Source: a virus
Direction: 5' to 3' (one strand)
DNA: 24,108 bases
Virus record (IMG/VR): IMGVR_UViG_3300011116_000842
Location: 1-24,108 of that record
Below the pieces are notes generated by a model that was not told the origin of the DNA, did not search any database, and saw only the letters and a list, made by a program, of their open reading frames with translations. Numbering within the stretch: position 1 is the stretch's first letter; each line of letters opens with the position of its first letter. Positions 3,803 to 24,108 of this stretch are shown here, one piece after another. Position numbers and translations under genes: made by a program.

Positions 3803-4788
3803 TGTCTCTTTATCTTGACAAAAAGTACATTAACCTTGTTTCAGGATCTCTTGAAAAATTCAAGTGGAAGAAGAACAATCTGGCAAATTGTCGTTGTCCA
3901 ATATGCGGAGATTCGCAGACAAATAAAACAAAGGCAAGAGGATATTTCTTTGGCTCCGATGATGCCTTCTTCTTCAAGTGTCACAATTGCGGCATATCAT
4001 ACAACATCTATAAATTTCTTGAACTGACCTCACCAAGTCTTTTTAAGCAATATTGTCTTGAACGATTCAAGGATCGGGAAACCAAGATTGAATTTATCTC
4101 CAAACCTGAAAAAGTAATAATTGTAAAATCAAATATCACTGAATATGAGATAATTGATGATCTTGATGAAACGCACAAGGCAATCATGTTCCTGGAATCA
4201 AGAAAGATTCCAAAAAAGATATGGAAGAAATTCTACTATACAGAGCATTTTGCAAAACTTGCAAAGCAATTCAACGAATCATATGATCTCATCGATGATG
4301 ATCGAATGGTAATTCCGATATTTGATGAACACAACCAGATGATTGCAATTCAAGGTAGATCATTTGGAAAGATTCAACCAAGGTATATCACCATAAAAAA
4401 GGATGAATCGATTAGACCGATATATGGAATCGAATCAATAGACAAGAGTAAACCGATTTATGTGGTCGAAGGACCAATCGATAGTCTTTTCTTGCCAAAT
4501 GCAATCGCATGTCTTGGTTCTGGAAATTTTCTTGAAGTAAGGGAAAAATTGTTAAATCAAGACTTGATTTTCGTTCCAGACAATGAGCCTCGCAATCGAA
4601 ACACGGTTGATCTGGTGCAAAAACTTATCGAAAAACGAGAAAAGGTATGCATTTGGCCATCCTTTATGAAAGATAAGGATATAAATGACATGGTCTTGAA
4701 TGGGGTCGATGTATGTGGTATACTTGAGTCTCATGTCCATGCAGGACCTTCCGCCACACTAGCATTTAATTCATGGAGAAAAATATAA
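3802..4788 (+). CDS. 61: T4 gp61-like DNA primase (zinc finger plus TOPRIM)
   Basis: A 328-aa primase that makes RNA primers for lagging-strand synthesis. The N-terminal zinc-binding domain has C32-x2-C35 and C60-x2-C63. A TOPRIM domain follows: the catalytic Glu is E223 in VVEGPIDS, and the acidic metal-binding motif is near D260 (FVPDNEP). Length matches T4 gp61 (about 340 aa). ATG 3802 forms TAATG with the helicase stop; an in-frame ATG at 3790 would overlap the helicase by 13 nt and is less likely. The 3' end again forms TAATG with the next gene, so expression of helicase, primase and the following unknown protein is probably linked. Confidence 0.94.
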   Translation: MSLYLDKKYINLVSGSLEKFKWKKNNLANCRCPICGDSQTNKTKARGYFFGSDDAFFFKCHNCGISYNIYKFLELTSPSLFKQYCLERFKDRETKIEFISKPEKVIIVKSNITEYEIIDDLDETHKAIMFLESRKIPKKIWKKFYYTEHFAKLAKQFNESYDLIDDDRMVIPIFDEHNQMIAIQGRSFGKIQPRYITIKKDESIRPIYGIESIDKSKPIYVVEGPIDSLFLPNAIACLGSGNFLEVREKLLNQDLIFVPDNEPRNRNTVDLVQKLIEKREKVCIWPSFMKDKDINDMVLNGVDVCGILESHVHAGPSATLAFNSWRKI

Positions 4789-8005: not shown

Positions 8006-9695
8006 ATGGTCTGTAAAGTGTTGGTGGTCGAGAAGGTCTTCCTGGTTGGGAAGGTGATCTTCCCGCTTCTCTCTGTTTTCTTTGTTGAGCAGCAAAATTG
8101 CTAGCAACATCCTTGATTCTGTCTGCTTCTGGATTGAGACTCAATGGAGCATTTGCAACTGGTCCTGAAGATTTGTTTGCATCTTCTGGATTGAGACTCA
8201 ATGGAGCATTTGCAACTGGTCCTGAAGATTTGTTTGCATCATTAGCAAATCTAGTCTTCATGTTAGAAGCAACATCCTTGATTCTATCTGCTTCTGATTT
8301 TTGCGCTGTTGCAAATTTAGTTGCAGTATTTTTAAGATTTGTTCTTTGATCATCTGCAAATTTAGTTGCAGTATTTCTAAGATTTGTTCTTTGATCATAT
8401 GCAAATTTAGTTGCAAAATCTTGTGGTTCCTGTGAAGTATTGAATTTGGGTGCTTCTGGTTGATCAGCTATTGGAGGATTTGGTGCGATTAATTCTGGTA
8501 CACCATATTTTGGTTTATTTTCTGGTGGAGATACTGGATCATTATCATTATTATGATATCCTCCAGTTTCCCATTTTGCGTATGCATCACTTTTGAATCT
8601 TAATGCACTAGAGCTATCGTTATTTTTAGCAATTGTTGATTTATTTTTAGCAGTTTGCAACTCCCTTACCGCATCAGCATATTCTGGAGTTGCTTTAATT
8701 CTATTAGCTCTTTGTTCATCTGCTAAATCCTTGTTCAAACCCTGAAGCACTGGATCTTTGGCATCTCTTTGCTTGTTTCTGTCTGCAATGGTTTTAGCGA
8801 CATTTCCTCTATTCATTGAAGATGCACCAGGAAGATCTAGTGCTTTATCAAACGCAGCATTTCCTGCATCTTCTCTTTCCTTTGCAAGATCCATTGGAAG
8901 TCTATTTCCTTGGTATTTTCCAAACGATGCTGGTAATTTGCCAGAATCAACATCTGCTCTGACTCTTGCTTCAGCACTATTTGGATTGACATATGATCCA
9001 CCAGTAATTACTGGTTTACCACCAACACCTCTACCCACGCCGAATCCACCACCATTGCGCTCAACTGGTTGAATAGGAGATGTTTCCGTATGCCATCTAT
9101 TGAATGATGCAGCAGCAGTTTTATATTCTGCACTATTTTTTCCATGTTCTTGTTTTGCGGACTGCATATCTGCTTTTGCCATATTTGCAGCAAGTGCTCT
9201 TGTTCTTGTTATATTACTGGTTCTGGTATTTATATCTGCACCCGAATTCTGAAGATTTGCAACATGCTTGAAATAATCTCTTGGAGTTCCTGAACCAGAA
9301 GTTGCCATTTTCGTTGCAACATCAAAATTAACCATGGTCGAATTACTAGGAGTTGTATTTGATTGATTATAAGATTTCTGAGATCCACCAAAATTAATCT
9401 CTGGTTGTTTTGCATCCTTTGGATTTATTTGAGGAGTATTTGGTTGCAATAATTTGGCAGCACCATATGCTCCTGCTGCAACAGCACCAGCAACTCCTGC
9501 TGTCTTGACGGTTGCAGCAACACCAGGTGCCTTCCATAATCTATTAGCAGCACCTTTAACTGTAGCAACTGGACGAGATCTCCATATATTAGAAGCAACA
9601 GTTCTAGCTGCATTCCAAGCACCAGATAAACTTGGTGCTTCGGTCAATATAATCTTATAGGTTTCAATTTGTTCTCTATTTAAATTTTGCGACAT
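8004..9695 (-). CDS. Repeat-rich, low-complexity late protein with T4-type capsid-targeting-like leader
   Basis: A 563-aa protein of unknown family, probably virion-internal. The N-terminus (IETYKIILTEAPSL) ends in L17-T18-E19 before A20, like the gp21 protease sites of T4 internal proteins. An Ala/Val-rich segment with weak membrane character follows (about 45-85, PGVAATVKTAGVAGAVAAGAYG). The rest is hydrophilic, rich in Asn, Asp, Lys, Pro and Ala and probably disordered. The C-terminal third has 15-aa ATKFADDQRTNL(R/K)NT repeats and two exact 19-aa DANKSSGPVANAPLSLNPE repeats. ATG 9695 is chosen over a TTG at 9707 because GGAG lies 7 nt upstream of it and a TATAAATA box sits just before. 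The gene is transcribed alone from that box. Real-gene confidence is high; function is unknown. Confidence 0.85.
   Translation of the reverse strand: MSQNLNREQIETYKIILTEAPSLSGAWNAARTVASNIWRSRPVATVKGAANRLWKAPGVAATVKTAGVAGAVAAGAYGAAKLLQPNTPQINPKDAKQPEINFGGSQKSYNQSNTTPSNSTMVNFDVATKMATSGSGTPRDYFKHVANLQNSGADINTRTSNITRTRALAANMAKADMQSAKQEHGKNSAEYKTAAASFNRWHTETSPIQPVERNGGGFGVGRGVGGKPVITGGSYVNPNSAEARVRADVDSGKLPASFGKYQGNRLPMDLAKEREDAGNAAFDKALDLPGASSMNRGNVAKTIADRNKQRDAKDPVLQGLNKDLADEQRANRIKATPEYADAVRELQTAKNKSTIAKNNDSSSALRFKSDAYAKWETGGYHNNDNDPVSPPENKPKYGVPELIAPNPPIADQPEAPKFNTSQEPQDFATKFAYDQRTNLRNTATKFADDQRTNLKNTATKFATAQKSEADRIKDVASNMKTRFANDANKSSGPVANAPLSLNPEDANKSSGPVANAPLSLNPEADRIKDVASNFAAQQRKQREAGRSPSQPGRPSRPPTLYRP
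8126..8240 (-). repeat. Two perfect tandem 57-bp repeats inside a coding region
   Basis: Units 8126-8182 and 8183-8239 are identical and encode the duplicated 19-aa DANKSSGPVANAPLSLNPE. Identity at the DNA level indicates a recent in-frame tandem duplication by slippage or recombination. Confidence 0.95.
8311..8415 (-). repeat. Tandem 45-bp repeats inside a coding region
   Basis: GCAAATTTAG begins units at 8311, 8356 and 8401 (two full copies and a partial third, with a few substitutions). They encode the 15-aa ATKFADDQRTNL(R/K)NT repeat. A further short duplication, ADRIKDVASN, is encoded near 8100-8125 and 8268-8297. Confidence 0.9.
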
Positions 9696-12189: not shown

Positions 12190-12741
12190 ATGATTATTTC
12201 AGCTATCGATTATTCCTTGAATGGACCTGCAATCTGTGTTTACGACACCAAGAAGGAATTTAATTTTTTAAATTGCAATTTTTACTTTTTAACTGATACT
12301 AAAAAATATGCAACTTCATTTATGAATAATATTTATGGAGAATTATTCAATCCATATGATGAAGAATGCGAAAGATATGACTCGATTTCAGACTGGGTAA
12401 TGAGAATAATTACAGGATCTGATCAGATTGCACTCGAAGGATATGCATATAGTGCAACTGGTAGAGTATTTCATATTGCTGAAAATACAGGAATATTAAA
12501 ATATAAATTCTATCAAGCAGGACTACCTGTAGAAATAATAGAACCAACAAAGGCTAAAAAAGCATTCACGGGCAAAGGTAATGCAGATAAAAATTTGATG
12601 TACAAGTTCTTTATACAAGAAACAGGGGTGGATCTCCAAGAGATCATCACCCCCAATAAAACTCTTTTAGGTAGTCCCGTTTCCGATATTGTAGATGCCT
12701 ATGCTATTTGCATGACAATGAACAATATTTTGAAACTTTAA
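12190..12741 (+). CDS. RuvC-like Holliday junction resolvase (RNase H fold)
   Basis: A 183-aa protein resembling RuvC-type crossover junction endonucleases. The acidic catalytic set is visible in order: D7 in SAIDYSLNGPAICVY, E83 in IALEGYAYSATG, and D166/D169 in SPVSDIVDAYAI. A basic, DNA-contacting stretch PTKAKKAFTGKGNADK lies between (119-134). T4 uses the unrelated gp49 for resolving branched DNA before packaging, so this is probably the functional replacement. It is the only + strand gene within the late block, divergent from the gene at 12159 and ending 2 nt before a convergent gene. No Shine-Dalgarno is evident upstream, so its translation start is weakly supported although the protein aligns from residue 1. 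Confidence 0.88.
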   Translation: MIISAIDYSLNGPAICVYDTKKEFNFLNCNFYFLTDTKKYATSFMNNIYGELFNPYDEECERYDSISDWVMRIITGSDQIALEGYAYSATGRVFHIAENTGILKYKFYQAGLPVEIIEPTKAKKAFTGKGNADKNLMYKFFIQETGVDLQEIITPNKTLLGSPVSDIVDAYAICMTMNNILKL

Positions 12742-12743
12742 TA

Positions 12744-13247
12744 TTATTTATCGTTTCTTCCTTGAAGATAATACCAACCAACTAATAACGATAATAGACA
12801 ATAGAATAGTATCGCATACCAATTGATTCTTGTGATACTTATCTCTGTTCCAACTGGCAATATAACTTCTGATGATGCTTCGATCTTGACCTTCGCAGGA
12901 GACGATGTCTGTATATATGTGTTCTCTGAAAGAATCAGATGTGTGTTCTTCGGAAGAACGATCTCCTGTGGTTTCTCCAGAGTTTGTGCTTTTGGGTCTA
13001 ATTGAACTGGTTTTAGAAATGCAATTGAATCTTCTTCCAGAACTACTTCTGTCTTTTCATCCATATCAGTTCTTAACCAAGTACCTTTTGGAAGATCAGC
13101 AATTGTATCTTTTGGTACTATAGTAACAGTTGATGCGTTGAGAGTATCTGGTGCTTTCTCCAAAACTGGAGGAGTAGAGATAAATCCTCGACATGATGCC
13201 ATAAAGAATAAAATAGATATTGCAAGTATTTTTAAGAATGATTTCAT
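12744..13247 (-). CDS. Probable unimolecular spanin (lipoprotein with C-terminal membrane anchor)
   Basis: A 167-aa protein. The N-terminus is a lipoprotein signal (MKSFLKILAISILFFMASC) with a lipobox M16-A17-S18-C19 and Arg at +2, which favours outer-membrane sorting. A beta-rich periplasmic region follows, and one hydrophobic segment (142-161, NWYAILFYCLLSLLVGWYYL) ends six residues before the C-terminus. Lipoprotein at one end and inner-membrane anchor at the other is the u-spanin layout (phage T1 gp11), which fuses outer and inner membranes at lysis. Its ATG overlaps the stop of the holin-like gene (ATGA), and AGGA is present upstream, which supports a lysis role. The function is inferred from topology and context, not from family similarity. 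Confidence 0.7.
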   Translation of the reverse strand: MKSFLKILAISILFFMASCRGFISTPPVLEKAPDTLNASTVTIVPKDTIADLPKGTWLRTDMDEKTEVVLEEDSIAFLKPVQLDPKAQTLEKPQEIVLPKNTHLILSENTYIQTSSPAKVKIEASSEVILPVGTEISITRINWYAILFYCLLSLLVGWYYLQGRNDK

Positions 13248-13678
13248 GTCTTGTTTCCTGCAGCTGCACTGCCGAAGTAAAATCCAACTATTGAAACTAG
13301 AATTTGTCTATTTTCTTGAGTAAACAAATATCCATTTACTGTCTGAAATATGGTTTCCTTGGTCTCTGGAATCAATCCAAAAAAGAATTCTGGATGAGTC
13401 TTGCTTACTTCGACAACAGTTGGAATCCCAAAGAAAGGTAGAACAAAAGGAGCAGCGATAGTTCCAAATAGGACCATGAGAACAATGATTTGTCTAACTG
13501 CTTTGCCAGCATCGATGGAAACTCGTTCAACTGCATCATTTTGATTTTTGTTTGTTCTTTCATTTGCTTGAAGCAATCTTTGAAAGTTTTCTTGTTCTGC
13601 TTGTCTTTTCTCTGCCATATATCGAAAAAGGAATCCAGTAGCAGATCCTCCAATTAACGATATTAATTCAGTTGGCAT
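13244..13678 (-). CDS. Holin-like membrane protein
   Basis: A 144-aa protein with hydrophobic segments at about 5-20, 63-86 (RQIIVLMVLFGTIAAPFVLPFFGI) and 125-141, separated by a charged helix (KRQAEQENFQRLLQANERTN). The three-segment arrangement and size recall the GTA_holin_3TM type. A holin would open the inner membrane at lysis. I choose ATG 13678 because GGAG lies 7 nt upstream; an in-frame ATG at 13690 overlaps the previous stop as TAATG but has no ribosome-binding site. The stop overlaps the spanin-like gene by 4 nt. The matching lysozyme is about 9 kb away (22541-23389). Another small membrane protein role remains possible. Confidence 0.6.
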   Translation of the reverse strand: MPTELISLIGGSATGFLFRYMAEKRQAEQENFQRLLQANERTNKNQNDAVERVSIDAGKAVRQIIVLMVLFGTIAAPFVLPFFGIPTVVEVSKTHPEFFFGLIPETKETIFQTVNGYLFTQENRQILVSIVGFYFGSAAAGNKT

Positions 13679-21465: not shown

Positions 21466-21831
21466 TTATTTTCTGGTTCTTATTTGTGTTCCTTGTGGAA
21501 CCATAGATGGATTCTTTATCCCTTTGTTCAGATTCATCAATTCATGCGTGGTTGTTCCATGCTTTCTTGCAATCTGTTCCAATGATTCATTGGATCCAAC
21601 CGTATACATTGGACTTGGTTGTGGTCCTTTTGTCTTAGGTGCAGATATAGTTGTCGATGGTCCAAGAGTTATTACTTTGGATACTGGTTTTTCGACAGGG
21701 GGTTCTTCTGGTTGTGCTTCTATCTCAGGTTTATCCTCTGGAAATGAAACAGCATCTGGACTCTGAAGTATATTGGGCAATCCCTTTATGATTCTTGTTG
21801 CTTCGATTATGTGTTGTTTGAATGAAATCAT
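21466..21831 (-). CDS. LysM-domain protein with capsid-targeting-like leader
   Basis: A 121-aa protein in three parts. The first is a leader, MISFKQHIIEATR (I8-I9-E10 before A11), closely similar to those of the lysozyme and neighbouring genes. The second is a Pro/Glu-rich linker, about 30-72. The third is a C-terminal LysM domain (about 76-120) with YTVGSNESLEQIARKHGTT, ELMNLNKGI and QGTQIRTRK. LysM binds N-acetylglucosamine in peptidoglycan or other glycans. There is no catalytic domain. If processed and packaged it would be delivered into the periplasm, where wall binding makes sense; a baseplate or tail LysM role is the alternative. It is 3 nt downstream of the His-rich gene. Confidence 0.82.
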   Translation of the reverse strand: MISFKQHIIEATRIIKGLPNILQSPDAVSFPEDKPEIEAQPEEPPVEKPVSKVITLGPSTTISAPKTKGPQPSPMYTVGSNESLEQIARKHGTTTHELMNLNKGIKNPSMVPQGTQIRTRK

Positions 21832-21834
21832 ATA

Positions 21835-22443
21835 TTATTGACCGTAGTCAAAATCTCCTCTATCATATCTATTTTCTCTATCCCAATCTGTAGCATCATT
21901 CATATATTGATCTGTTCTTTTTCTTTCTTCTCGCTTTGCACTACGAATGCTATCAGCGTCTAACCAGACATGCATGGTCTTGGATTTTGGATCAAAATGC
22001 ATATTTGGTTCATCGATATGATGCCGCAATGTCATGGAAAGAGATTTTCCAAGATGTTCTTCTGATGTTTTCGATAACTCTGGATGATGTTCATCTGCAC
22101 CAAAAACATCAAGTTTTCTTGCCATATTGTGAGAGATATTATGATCAGAAAGATGATGAGCATATTCAGATGCATCTGCGGTGATGTGAATTTTACCGTC
22201 AGATTCTTTCATGCTGGTGATTGGAAGATGATGAAATGTCAACTTATCAGATCCCGATGGGGATGCGTGTACTAATGGAATCGATCCATTTAATCTTCTC
22301 ATCAACCAATCGTGATGTGGTAGACCTTCTTCTGGAACATTCTCATGTGGTGCATCACTTGCATGTCCAAACATTGAATGGATATAATTATCCCAATCAT
22401 TTCCTGATTTTATTTCGGATAATAATTGTTTAAAGTTCTTCAT
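21835..22443 (-). CDS. His-rich late protein with capsid-targeting-like leader
   Basis: A 202-aa protein with no recognised family. The leader MKNFKQLLSEIKSG (L8-S9-E10) is nearly the same in DNA and protein as that of the lysozyme gene. About one residue in ten is His (HH pairs in LPHHDW, FHHLPI, AHHLSDH, EHHPEL, LRHHID). The C-terminus is charged (RSAKREERKRTDQY, then Asp/Tyr-rich). Metal binding is possible, but no fixed spacing motif is seen. ATG 22443 has GAGG 6 nt upstream and overlaps by 4 nt the stop of a truncated small gene. It is probably a packaged protein. Confidence 0.75.
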   Translation of the reverse strand: MKNFKQLLSEIKSGNDWDNYIHSMFGHASDAPHENVPEEGLPHHDWLMRRLNGSIPLVHASPSGSDKLTFHHLPITSMKESDGKIHITADASEYAHHLSDHNISHNMARKLDVFGADEHHPELSKTSEEHLGKSLSMTLRHHIDEPNMHFDPKSKTMHVWLDADSIRSAKREERKRTDQYMNDATDWDRENRYDRGDFDYGQ

Positions 22444-22530
22444 GTATGCCTCTTAAACCATTCTATCTGTTGTAATCTTTTAACTGCTGCTTCTTTACTT
22501 TTAAACTTACCGAGTTGCTTAAAAGTTTTT
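22440..22530 (-). pseudogene. Truncated copy of the 52-aa leader gene
   Basis: Reading backwards from the TGA at 22440-22442, the frame encodes KQLGKFKSKEAAVKRLQQIE then WFKRHT. This is nearly identical to the C-terminal half of the intact 52-aa gene at 23386-23544. The N-terminal half, including the leader, is missing and no ATG is available; the homology ends at about 22521, just downstream of the lysozyme stop. The ATGA overlap with the next gene is preserved, so read-through or coupled translation may still matter. Confidence 0.8.
22457..22521 (-). repeat. 65-bp direct repeat, copy 1 (truncated gene)
   Basis: Matches 23403-23467 in 64 of 65 positions, offset 946 bp. Weaker similarity continues through the following ATG and the first ten codons of the downstream genes (His-rich protein here, lysozyme at copy 2). 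Confidence 0.95.
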
Positions 22531-22540
22531 ATATTTAACC

Positions 22541-23389
22541 TTACTTGATTGTGATTTTTTGACCTGGTTTGATGAAATTTGGATCCTTTATGGAAGGATT
22601 CTTCTTGCTTATCTCGTCCACGGTTGTTTTATATTTATTTGCAATCGTGGTAAGATTATCGCCTTTTGCAACAGTATGCACGACTCCAGGATTTGCTTGT
22701 GGTGCTGGAATTGAAGTTGGTTGCCACTTTGGTTGTTCTTGTTGCTTTGGAGATTGTGGAATTGAAGTTGGTTGTTGTGTCTGTGGTTTTGGTTGAGCAA
22801 CTACTGGTTTAGCAGATTCACCAGAATTCCATAGAGTTGCTTCTGCATTTCTTCTTCGAACAAGACCAGATCTAATCTGACCATCACTCTTATTATAGAG
22901 TTTCATTGCTGCTGGAACAGAATCCCAATCTTTATTTTTAAGTGCCTTTGTGATTGTACCAAATTTTTCAGTATTGCCATAGAATGCACCACCAGTGTTG
23001 TATGCAAAACCAATCAATGCTGCTTGTTTTCCAGCATCCATGTCATCCCATCCAGGGATCTTTTCAAGTTTAGAAGAGACATGCTTTTCAATATGTTGTC
23101 TGAGATGTTCTTCAGCTTGTTCTAACGAAACACTATCGCCTTGTTTGATTGGTTCTCCGTTTGGATATTTTCCAGTAATACCATATCCAATGGTCAAAGG
23201 TTTACCAGTGGTGATTGTATCTACTTTTACCTTTGGAAGAAACCCTTCAAAATCTTTAATATGTTCGACTGCTTTATCCATTGCTTCTTGCTTTGGGGGT
23301 GCTGCCATTGCACCTGTTGCCAATCCAAGTGCTGCAAGAGTTGCAAGTCCATATTTTTCTTCAAGATAATATTGTTTAAAACTCTTCAT
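22541..23389 (-). CDS. GH24 (T4-type) lysozyme with C-terminal LysM and capsid-targeting-like leader
   Basis: A 282-aa muramidase. The GH24 core (about 35-190) has catalytic E48 in FEGF, TIGYGIT at 66-72, and the family's GLVRRRNAEATLW (175-187). A Pro/Gln linker with a repeated QPTSIP leads to a LysM domain (about 238-281: HTVAKGDNLTTIANKYKTTV ... IKPGQKITI). The N-terminus is a composite: MKSFKQYYLEEK matches the leaders of neighbours, and residues 13-30 (YGLATLAALGLATGAMAA) look like a signal-peptide or signal-arrest-release segment. It may be the endolysin exported to the periplasm, a packaged lysozyme acting at entry, or both. ATG 23389 overlaps the preceding stop (ATGA); ATG 23407 is less likely. 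Confidence 0.9.
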   Translation of the reverse strand: MKSFKQYYLEEKYGLATLAALGLATGAMAAPPKQEAMDKAVEHIKDFEGFLPKVKVDTITTGKPLTIGYGITGKYPNGEPIKQGDSVSLEQAEEHLRQHIEKHVSSKLEKIPGWDDMDAGKQAALIGFAYNTGGAFYGNTEKFGTITKALKNKDWDSVPAAMKLYNKSDGQIRSGLVRRRNAEATLWNSGESAKPVVAQPKPQTQQPTSIPQSPKQQEQPKWQPTSIPAPQANPGVVHTVAKGDNLTTIANKYKTTVDEISKKNPSIKDPNFIKPGQKITIK

Positions 23390-23544
23390 TTGTGTCTCTT
23401 GAACCATTCTATCTGTTGTAATCTTTTAACTGCTGCTTCTTTACTTTTATACTTACCGAGTTGCTTACCTTTTTTGCTCAAAATAGCATAATCATTGCCT
23501 TGCTTGACGATTGTTTCTTTTAGAATATCCTTAAAGTTCTTCAT
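23386..23544 (-). CDS. 52-aa basic protein with capsid-targeting-like leader (short gene)
   Basis: Continuous frame from ATG 23544 to TGA 23386. The protein begins MKNFKDILKETIVKQGNDYA, continues ILSKKGKQLGKYKSKEAAVK and ends RLQQIEWFKRHK. The leader (L8-K9-E10 before T11) matches those of downstream genes. The rest resembles a small phage domain (xxYxIxSKKGKxLGxYKSKEAA) that I recall next to similar leaders in other phages. The stop overlaps the lysozyme ATG by 4 nt. A TATAAATA box lies so close (23550-23557) that the mRNA would begin at or next to the A of the ATG, so translation may be leaderless. A truncated second copy is at 22440-22530, which supports this being a real gene. Confidence 0.8.
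   Translation of the reverse strand: MKNFKDILKETIVKQGNDYAILSKKGKQLGKYKSKEAAVKRLQQIEWFKRHK
23403..23467 (-). repeat. 65-bp direct repeat, copy 2 (intact 52-aa gene)
   Basis: Partner of 22457-22521 with one mismatch. It lies in the 3' half of the intact small gene, immediately upstream of the lysozyme start. Confidence 0.95.
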
Positions 23545-23549
23545 CTTTT

Positions 23550-23557
23550 TATTTATA
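23550..23557 (-). promoter_or_regulatory. T4-type late promoter TATAAATA heading the largest late unit
   Basis: Exact consensus; five nucleotides separate it from the ATG at 23544. With T4 geometry +1 falls on the A of the ATG. It heads about ten genes, down to the terminator at 18187-18202. Confidence 0.8.
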
Positions 23558-23562
23558 AAATT

Positions 23563-23587
23563 GGGGGGATCACACCTGGATCCCCCC
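23563..23587 (-). terminator. GC-rich terminator hairpin ahead of a late promoter
   Basis: Stem GGGGGGATC (23563-23571) / GATCCCCCC (23579-23587), 7-nt loop. On the minus strand it is followed by AATTTTATAAATA, so a short T-tract leads into the next promoter box. It would end transcription of the 62-aa gene upstream. Confidence 0.75.
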
Positions 23588-23622
23588 CTAGTCCATCAGG
23601 TAGCGAAGCCCGAGCGGTCTAG
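23588..23622. other. GC-rich island with a tRNA D-arm-like motif
   Basis: About 35 bases of clearly higher GC than the roughly 30% surroundings, between a stop codon and a terminator. It is bounded by CTAG on both sides (23588-23591 and 23619-23622). The plus strand reads AAGCCCGAGCGGTCTAG at 23606-23622, similar to the D-arm of class II (Ser/Leu) tRNAs. No acceptor stem, anticodon arm or T-arm follows, so it is not a tRNA gene. Confidence 0.35.
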
Positions 23623-23807
23623 TGTTTATTTTTTAATGATTTTAGATATTTTTTATTTTTAGTAAAAAATAACATTGGATCTATTTTTCTTTTTATGGAT
23701 TCTTTGTTTAAATATTGTAAAAACTGTGGAGATAATAATATCTCTGAGGATGCCGATGTTTGCATTAGAGAGTTAAGGGTTTTACCATATCTCTTGTTTT
23801 TACTCAT
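23619..23807 (-). CDS. Small 62-aa unknown protein
   Basis: Basic protein (MSKNKRYGKTLNSLMQTSAS ... FLQYLNKESIKRKIDPMLFF ... KSLKNKH) with a probable helical centre. No family is recognised. No convincing Shine-Dalgarno precedes ATG 23807, and the AT-rich TATATATA just upstream might serve as a promoter for either direction. It is followed by a terminator hairpin on its own strand and is divergent from the 43-aa membrane protein. An overlapping + strand frame is less protein-like. Moderately likely to be real. Confidence 0.5.
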   Translation of the reverse strand: MSKNKRYGKTLNSLMQTSASSEILLSPQFLQYLNKESIKRKIDPMLFFTKNKKYLKSLKNKH

Positions 23808-24043: not shown

Positions 24044-24108
24044 ATGGGGTACTATCAACAGGGGGGTACTATCAACGGGGGGGTACTATCAACATGGGGT
24101 ACTATCAA
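24044..24108. repeat. Tandem ~17-bp G-rich repeats reaching the window end
   Basis: Four copies of GGGGTACTATCAA(C), with the T of TACTATCAA at 24050, 24067, 24084 and 24100 (periods 17, 17, 16). The G-tracts are 4, 6, 7 and 4 long. The array continues to the last base, so its true length is unknown. No gene is visible in 23969-24108. It could be iterons, a G-quadruplex element, a packaging or recombination signal, or an artefact of a contig end. Confidence 0.9.

Follow-up and report, generated by a model that had tools for sequence, protein, structure and literature searches.

We consider it probable (roughly 0.6) that in a group of uncultured T4-type phages recombination over the conserved DNA of a 52-aa gene (g52) and the leader codons that follow it reassorts genes for proteins that are probably packaged in the head, and that in the stretch studied here a lysozyme gene of another lineage was set between g52 and the gene of a His-rich protein, a partial g52 being left behind. 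The spot looks like a recombination seam. Internal proteins with a conserved tag and variable cargo, as well as cassette-mediated shuffling, are already known for T4-like phages; new here are the locus, the cargo (cell-wall enzymes) and the seam. If this is true, T4-type phages beyond the enterobacterial model would choose what enters the host with the DNA by the same tag-and-swap logic, head cargo would include peptidoglycan-active enzymes, leader and cassette would suffice for finding cargo genes in metagenomes, and the diversification of head cargo would gain a testable explanation in the seam.

The late-gene island and its repeat

The window, i.e. the whole stretch of DNA that was analysed, is a 24.1-kb IMG/VR fragment (24,108 nt) of a T4-type phage. 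Genes of UvsX/RecA-like, DnaB-like helicase, primase, ThyX-like and ribonucleotide reductase proteins, named from sequence and gene order, are on the plus strand and the late genes on the minus strand. The exonuclease gene has matches in 961 phage records, all below 60% identity and most often from cyanophages. The region at 20.9-23.6 kb would represent a late-transcribed island for proteins with a T4-like capsid-targeting leader of about 10 residues. Its order in the direction of transcription is g62, promoter cassette, g52, lysozyme, a g52 remnant (g52'), His-rich protein, LysM protein and MFN, as follows.

23619..23807, minus strand: g62, conserved gene of 62 aa that borders the cargo island upstream; homologues at the same place in 8/8 relatives reaching there
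23548..23624, minus strand: promoter cassette with the box ACTAG..CCGC..GGGC(T)TTCGCTACC..GGACTAG, a GGGGGGATC/GATCCCCCC stem-loop and the T4 late promoter TATAAATA; in 9/9 contigs (window and eight relatives)
23557-23550, minus strand: the late promoter TATAAATA itself; TATACATA instead in the relative L010
23386..23544, minus strand: g52, intact ORF of 52 aa with the leader MKNFKDILKE and a basic KRLQQIEWFKRHK module; homologues in 8 relatives and a broken copy in a ninth
23403..23467, minus strand: repeat copy 1, inside intact g52 and upstream of the lysozyme; 64/65 nt identical to copy 2
22541..23389, minus strand: lysozyme cargo with the leader MKSFKQYYLEE, an Ala-rich hydrophobic stretch, GH24 Phage_lysozyme and LysM (Pfam PF00959, 1e-19; PF01476, 4e-14)
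22440..22532, minus strand: g52', a second copy of g52, incomplete and lacking a start; supported by its reading frame and by a six-frame match to residues 10-51 of g52
22457..22521, minus strand: repeat copy 2, inside g52' and upstream of the His-rich gene
21835..22443, minus strand: His-rich cargo protein with the leader MKNFKQLLSE; homologues in two relatives, directly behind g52
21466..21831, minus strand: LysM cargo protein with the leader MISFKQHIIE (Pfam LysM, 2.5e-9); homologue in L010
20908..21462, minus strand: MFN (MFNELFQSINESIKKRN...), conserved downstream border gene; in all relatives reaching the end of the island

The preliminary description had reported a direct repeat of 65 bp with one mismatch in these minus-strand genes, and this was borne out, the copies lying at an offset of 946 nt. 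A wider alignment (22402-22521 with 23348-23467) gives 85% identity over 120 nt. An extension at lower identity across the next ATG and the leader codons, also reported, was recovered as a likeness that decays over about 7 codons; near-identity stops at the ATG, and the leader codons are far less similar (MKNFKQLLSE versus MKSFKQYYLEE). The 24-kb window holds no further two-copy repeat of similar length and identity except for a tandem within a gene at 8126-8239, and chance is therefore excluded as an explanation for the 65-bp repeat.

Upstream of the lysozyme g52 is intact, as had been described, and overlaps the lysozyme ATG (23387-23389) as ATGA; the same overlap is retained at the His ATG. 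The frame of the remnant is open, has no ATG, GTG or TTG start and ends ...KRLQQIEWFKRHT-TGA. The earlier statement that only the 3' half of the 52-aa gene survives before the His-rich gene holds in so far as the copy is partial and start-less, but there may be more to it than a 3' half. Read post hoc, the 5' edge of the remnant (TAAGG-TTAAAT-ATA-AAA-ACT-TTT-AAG-CAA) may comprise a Shine-Dalgarno-like stretch and a leader-like IKTFKQ (ATA for ATG), joined at AAGCAA to the KQLGK of g52.

Gene orders and breakpoints in relatives

Scanning of viral contigs with g52, lysozyme, exonuclease and MFN returned about ten related fragments, nine of them covering the locus and all of them metagenome fragments from IMG/VR. 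No g52 homologue was found in cultured phages, among 50,697 phage records, or in GTDB genome contigs, so that the comparison draws wholly on the IMG/VR fragments. The His-rich protein, used alone as a query of viral contigs, gave no match. Distant matches sharing just the KRLQQIEWFK module (at the portal C-terminus, or in a gene that lies between portal and major capsid protein) were rejected as a widespread module and not g52. In unrelated phages the KRLxQIEWFK module was seen at the C-terminus of a portal protein (L012:49-1590) and also as a gene of 46 aa located between those for portal and capsid (L002:5998-6138).

The borders g62 and MFN are constant in the window and its relatives, and the content between them is variable.

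L003, L017, L018: g52-lysozyme
L008: 238-aa gene, g52, lysozyme
L007: 237-aa gene, g52, 218-aa protein
L010: g52, His, lysozyme, LysM
L033: 241-aa gene, g52, His, lysozyme
L016: five leader-bearing genes and a broken g52
L038 (starts inside g52): g52, then an HExxH protein

Whole cargo genes are thus present, absent or re-ordered between the cassette and MFN, which is the gain and loss at junctions that had been anticipated. The 3' end of g52 directly precedes four unrelated genes, those for lysozyme, the His-rich protein, the 218-aa protein and the HExxH protein. The accompanying expectation, that these genes would bear leaders, holds for the first three and fails for the HExxH gene, which has none at its start and a leader-like LKEFKEYITE further inside. 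The 218-aa protein was considered by eye to resemble a lytic transglycosylase; having no Pfam, PHROG or PDB match it is called unclassified. At or near the C-terminus of the 237- and 238-aa genes (L007:1945-2658, L008:2411-3127), right before g52, stands a leader-like IM[GT]FK[QE]FI[RL]E, which could be either a stranded leader or a C-terminal tag.

Among the locus-covering fragments, the lysozyme ahead of the His gene with a piece of g52 between them is found in the window only, and the orders in L010 and L033 suggest that g52-His was the earlier adjacency in its lineage. The phylogeny of the window lysozyme is discordant with that of its neighbour genes. In trees of only seven to nine sequences, exonuclease and MFN place the window with L010, L016, L017, L018 and L033 (100/100 and 100/99), apart from L003, L007 and L008, and the lysozyme joins that of L008 (100/98). 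AU tests reject the vertical grouping (p=0.009) and window+L010 (p=0.004) for the lysozyme, and window+L008 for MFN (p=4e-6) and exonuclease (p=1e-7).

An assembly chimera, with the contig joining a g52-lysozyme strain to a g52-His strain, would account for the grouping of the lysozyme with another lineage and for the presence, near the contig end, of both adjacencies that relatives have separately. We regard it as highly improbable: the junction between the lysozyme stop and the remnant (22521-22541) is unique sequence and offers no repeat on which a misjoin could form, a misjoin via the repeat would leave one copy and not two with a mismatch, the contig contains no Ns, and other contigs show exchange independently.

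Identity between L003 and L007 stands at 97.7% across g62 and the promoter cassette and lasts to the start codon that follows, where the extra 237-aa gene is inserted in L007. Their g52 and 10-11 codons of the next gene are 94.3% identical and are followed by unrelated cargo (lysozyme versus 218-aa protein), after which the MFN genes share about 73%. The high identity extends upstream far past the junction, so that only one edge of the exchange falls at a leader. Between L033 and L018 a 172-bp block, which starts 2 nt ahead of the g52 ATG and runs to codon 5 of the following gene (His in L033, lysozyme in L018), is 96.5% identical, with flanks at 82% and 75%. Where their amino acids agree, the two contigs also share the codon at 48/51 sites of g52, versus 211/324 sites of g62, lysozyme and MFN together (Fisher p=6e-6), an excess that points to a recent transfer of the block and not to protein conservation alone. 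Replacement of the L018 g52 relative to L017 was unsupported, g52 of this pair behaving like its neighbours in the same test (p=0.79).

The broken g52 of L016 (about 3908-3985) comprises the 5' half, opposite to the half in the window remnant, with ATG changed to ATA and TAA at codon 6, and ends right before the ATG of a leader-bearing 479-aa gene. The 317-aa and 105-aa genes of this contig have about 115 nt of leader region in common (alignment score 86, shuffle maximum 36). Because of this broken copy and this shared leader region, the locus does not correspond to a one-off duplication with the same cargo order in relatives and no junction homology elsewhere, the outcome which the preliminary description had named as contrary to its proposal.

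Ordinary T4-type mosaicism would consist of generic swaps in which the junction has no special role, breakpoints coinciding with leaders only through the conservation of leaders and g52 by selection on protein function. Recombination-driven replication and widespread mosaicism are features of T4-like phages (PMC1524935, PMC2993671), the g52 protein of relatives is well conserved (71-79% to that of the window), and the 64/65 repeat could be one local event. This explanation carries some weight and is on the whole unlikely, as the synonymous identity of g52 in L033/L018 is far above that of its neighbours, a block for which protein selection alone does not account, and as broken g52 copies stand at leader junctions in two lineages.

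In the preferred reading, recombination over g52/leader DNA, the leaders and the ~160-bp g52, often ahead of a cargo gene, would be conserved in DNA and serve phage-encoded recombination as short homology. The gene behind the leader would be replaced, added or lost, with promoter, coupling ATGA and leader kept. In the ancestor of the window a lysozyme from another lineage would have been placed between g52 and the His gene, leaving before the latter the partial g52 copy, i.e. the 65-bp repeat. It had been proposed that recombination at small-gene/leader junctions duplicates the leader and swaps the cargo. The different cargo behind g52/leader in relatives supports this in part; the 65-bp duplication itself need not have copied the leader, and the sharing of leaders goes back much further and is far more widespread than this recent repeat. 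We give little weight to the notion that g52 and the following leader codons are a selected exchange cassette, a mobile homology patch of ~170 bp with leader codons at both sides, the spread of which helps to load new enzymes, including cell-wall hydrolases, into heads.

Leaders and probable capsid targeting

The pattern M..[FL]...[IL].E is matched exactly by 20 of the 24 tabulated island leaders and by all 24 with up to 3 extra residues. It scores [F/L] at residue 4 and [I/L]xE ending at residue 10-13 (8 and 10 in the exact form), position 7 lying outside the scoring. The corresponding values in shuffled leaders are 0.13 (exact) and 0.5 (relaxed), with 0/28 in other genes of the window; since the pattern was drawn up after the leaders had been viewed, the comparison with T4 outweighs the shuffle result. 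In T4 IPIII targeting depends mainly on residues 4 and 7 and processing on residues 8 and 10 (PMC9026906), and the T-even internal proteins are diverse, only the capsid targeting sequence being conserved (PMC3012670). The island has N-terminal leaders of about 10 residues that agree at 4, 8 and 10, and at this variable locus the conserved leader precedes mature proteins that are unrelated to one another. Because the leaders match the T4 motif, the island proteins are probably taken up into the prohead and cleaved inside it.

The T-even IPI, IPII and IPIII likewise have a short N-terminal leader with key residues 4, 7, 8 and 10, conserved on mature parts that are unrelated and variable among relatives (PMC9026906, PMC3012670, PMC12373910). 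Unlike these, the island includes a GH24 lysozyme and LysM proteins in its cargo, the packaging of which is a prediction here, and the cargo is preceded by the small, itself leader-bearing g52 gene. As at the sites of the T4 gp21 prohead protease, the island leaders end in [I/L]xE at residue 10-13, a likeness in sequence. PF03420 (gp21-type prohead protease) matched nowhere in the fragments, the controls being equally silent and the genomes partial.

In the lysozyme (window and homologues; ...AMAAPPK) and the 218-aa protein (L007:2809-3465) the leader runs straight into an Ala-rich hydrophobic stretch, as in signal-anchor endolysins. This would fit a leader that is the cytoplasmic N-region of secreted or signal-anchor proteins and not a head tag, with the lysozyme acting as lysis endolysin. 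Such a role is improbable in view of g52, the His and LysM proteins and the L016 proteins of 105-479 aa, which bear a like leader with no such stretch seen after it; moreover the spacing of F4, [IL]8 and E10 fits the T4 processing signal. Melnitz, a distant isolate relative annotated with a gp21-type prohead protease, is an isolate where packaging could be tested. A hypothetical protein of Melnitz (L039:4204-5289, corresponding to 12203-13288 of the Melnitz record) begins with MQGFKTFLSEAK, likewise a leader of this type, and its gene lies behind a late promoter.

The promoter cassette

Each fragment has one copy of the full cassette box; stem-loop/late-promoter pairs of other sequence exist elsewhere. 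In the stem 98.9% of cells are paired and 5/10 pairs are changed on both sides, beyond all 500 shuffles. A comparison of the window with Rfam gave no match. The box, at 23594-23624 between g62 and the stem-loop, is near-invariant in nine contigs. Five different genes stand directly after the cassette, depending on the contig (g52, 237/238-aa, 241-aa, 317-aa), the 237-aa and 238-aa genes being related only in part.

The PeSL mobile regulatory cassettes of T4-like phages (Arbiol 2010; Comeau 2014), as they are described in PMC4503421, similarly have a conserved stem-loop and promoter at the head of a region of gene shuffling. Unlike the PeSL of that description, which join an early promoter to the stem-loop and exchange single-gene modules through many dispersed copies, the stem-loop here adjoins the T4 late octamer TATAAATA and not a known early promoter, there is a single full cassette per fragment, and within the island the seams are coding (g52/leader), not intergenic.

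In 21 cases in 11 contigs an ATG lies 5-6 nt beyond TATAAATA, without a Shine-Dalgarno sequence (window 23557-23550 and 18177-18170, both minus strand, and 19 sites in related loci); most other late promoters of this sequence have the ATG at 15-24 nt, mostly with a Shine-Dalgarno sequence. As the T4 late promoter octamer spans -13 to -6 (PMC1524935), an ATG at this short distance implies leaderless late mRNAs. Melnitz has only one such close-ATG late promoter in the 73 kb scanned. At the contig end, the window carries a tandem array of GGGGTACTATCAACAGG (24046-24108; 3.8 copies of 17 bp).
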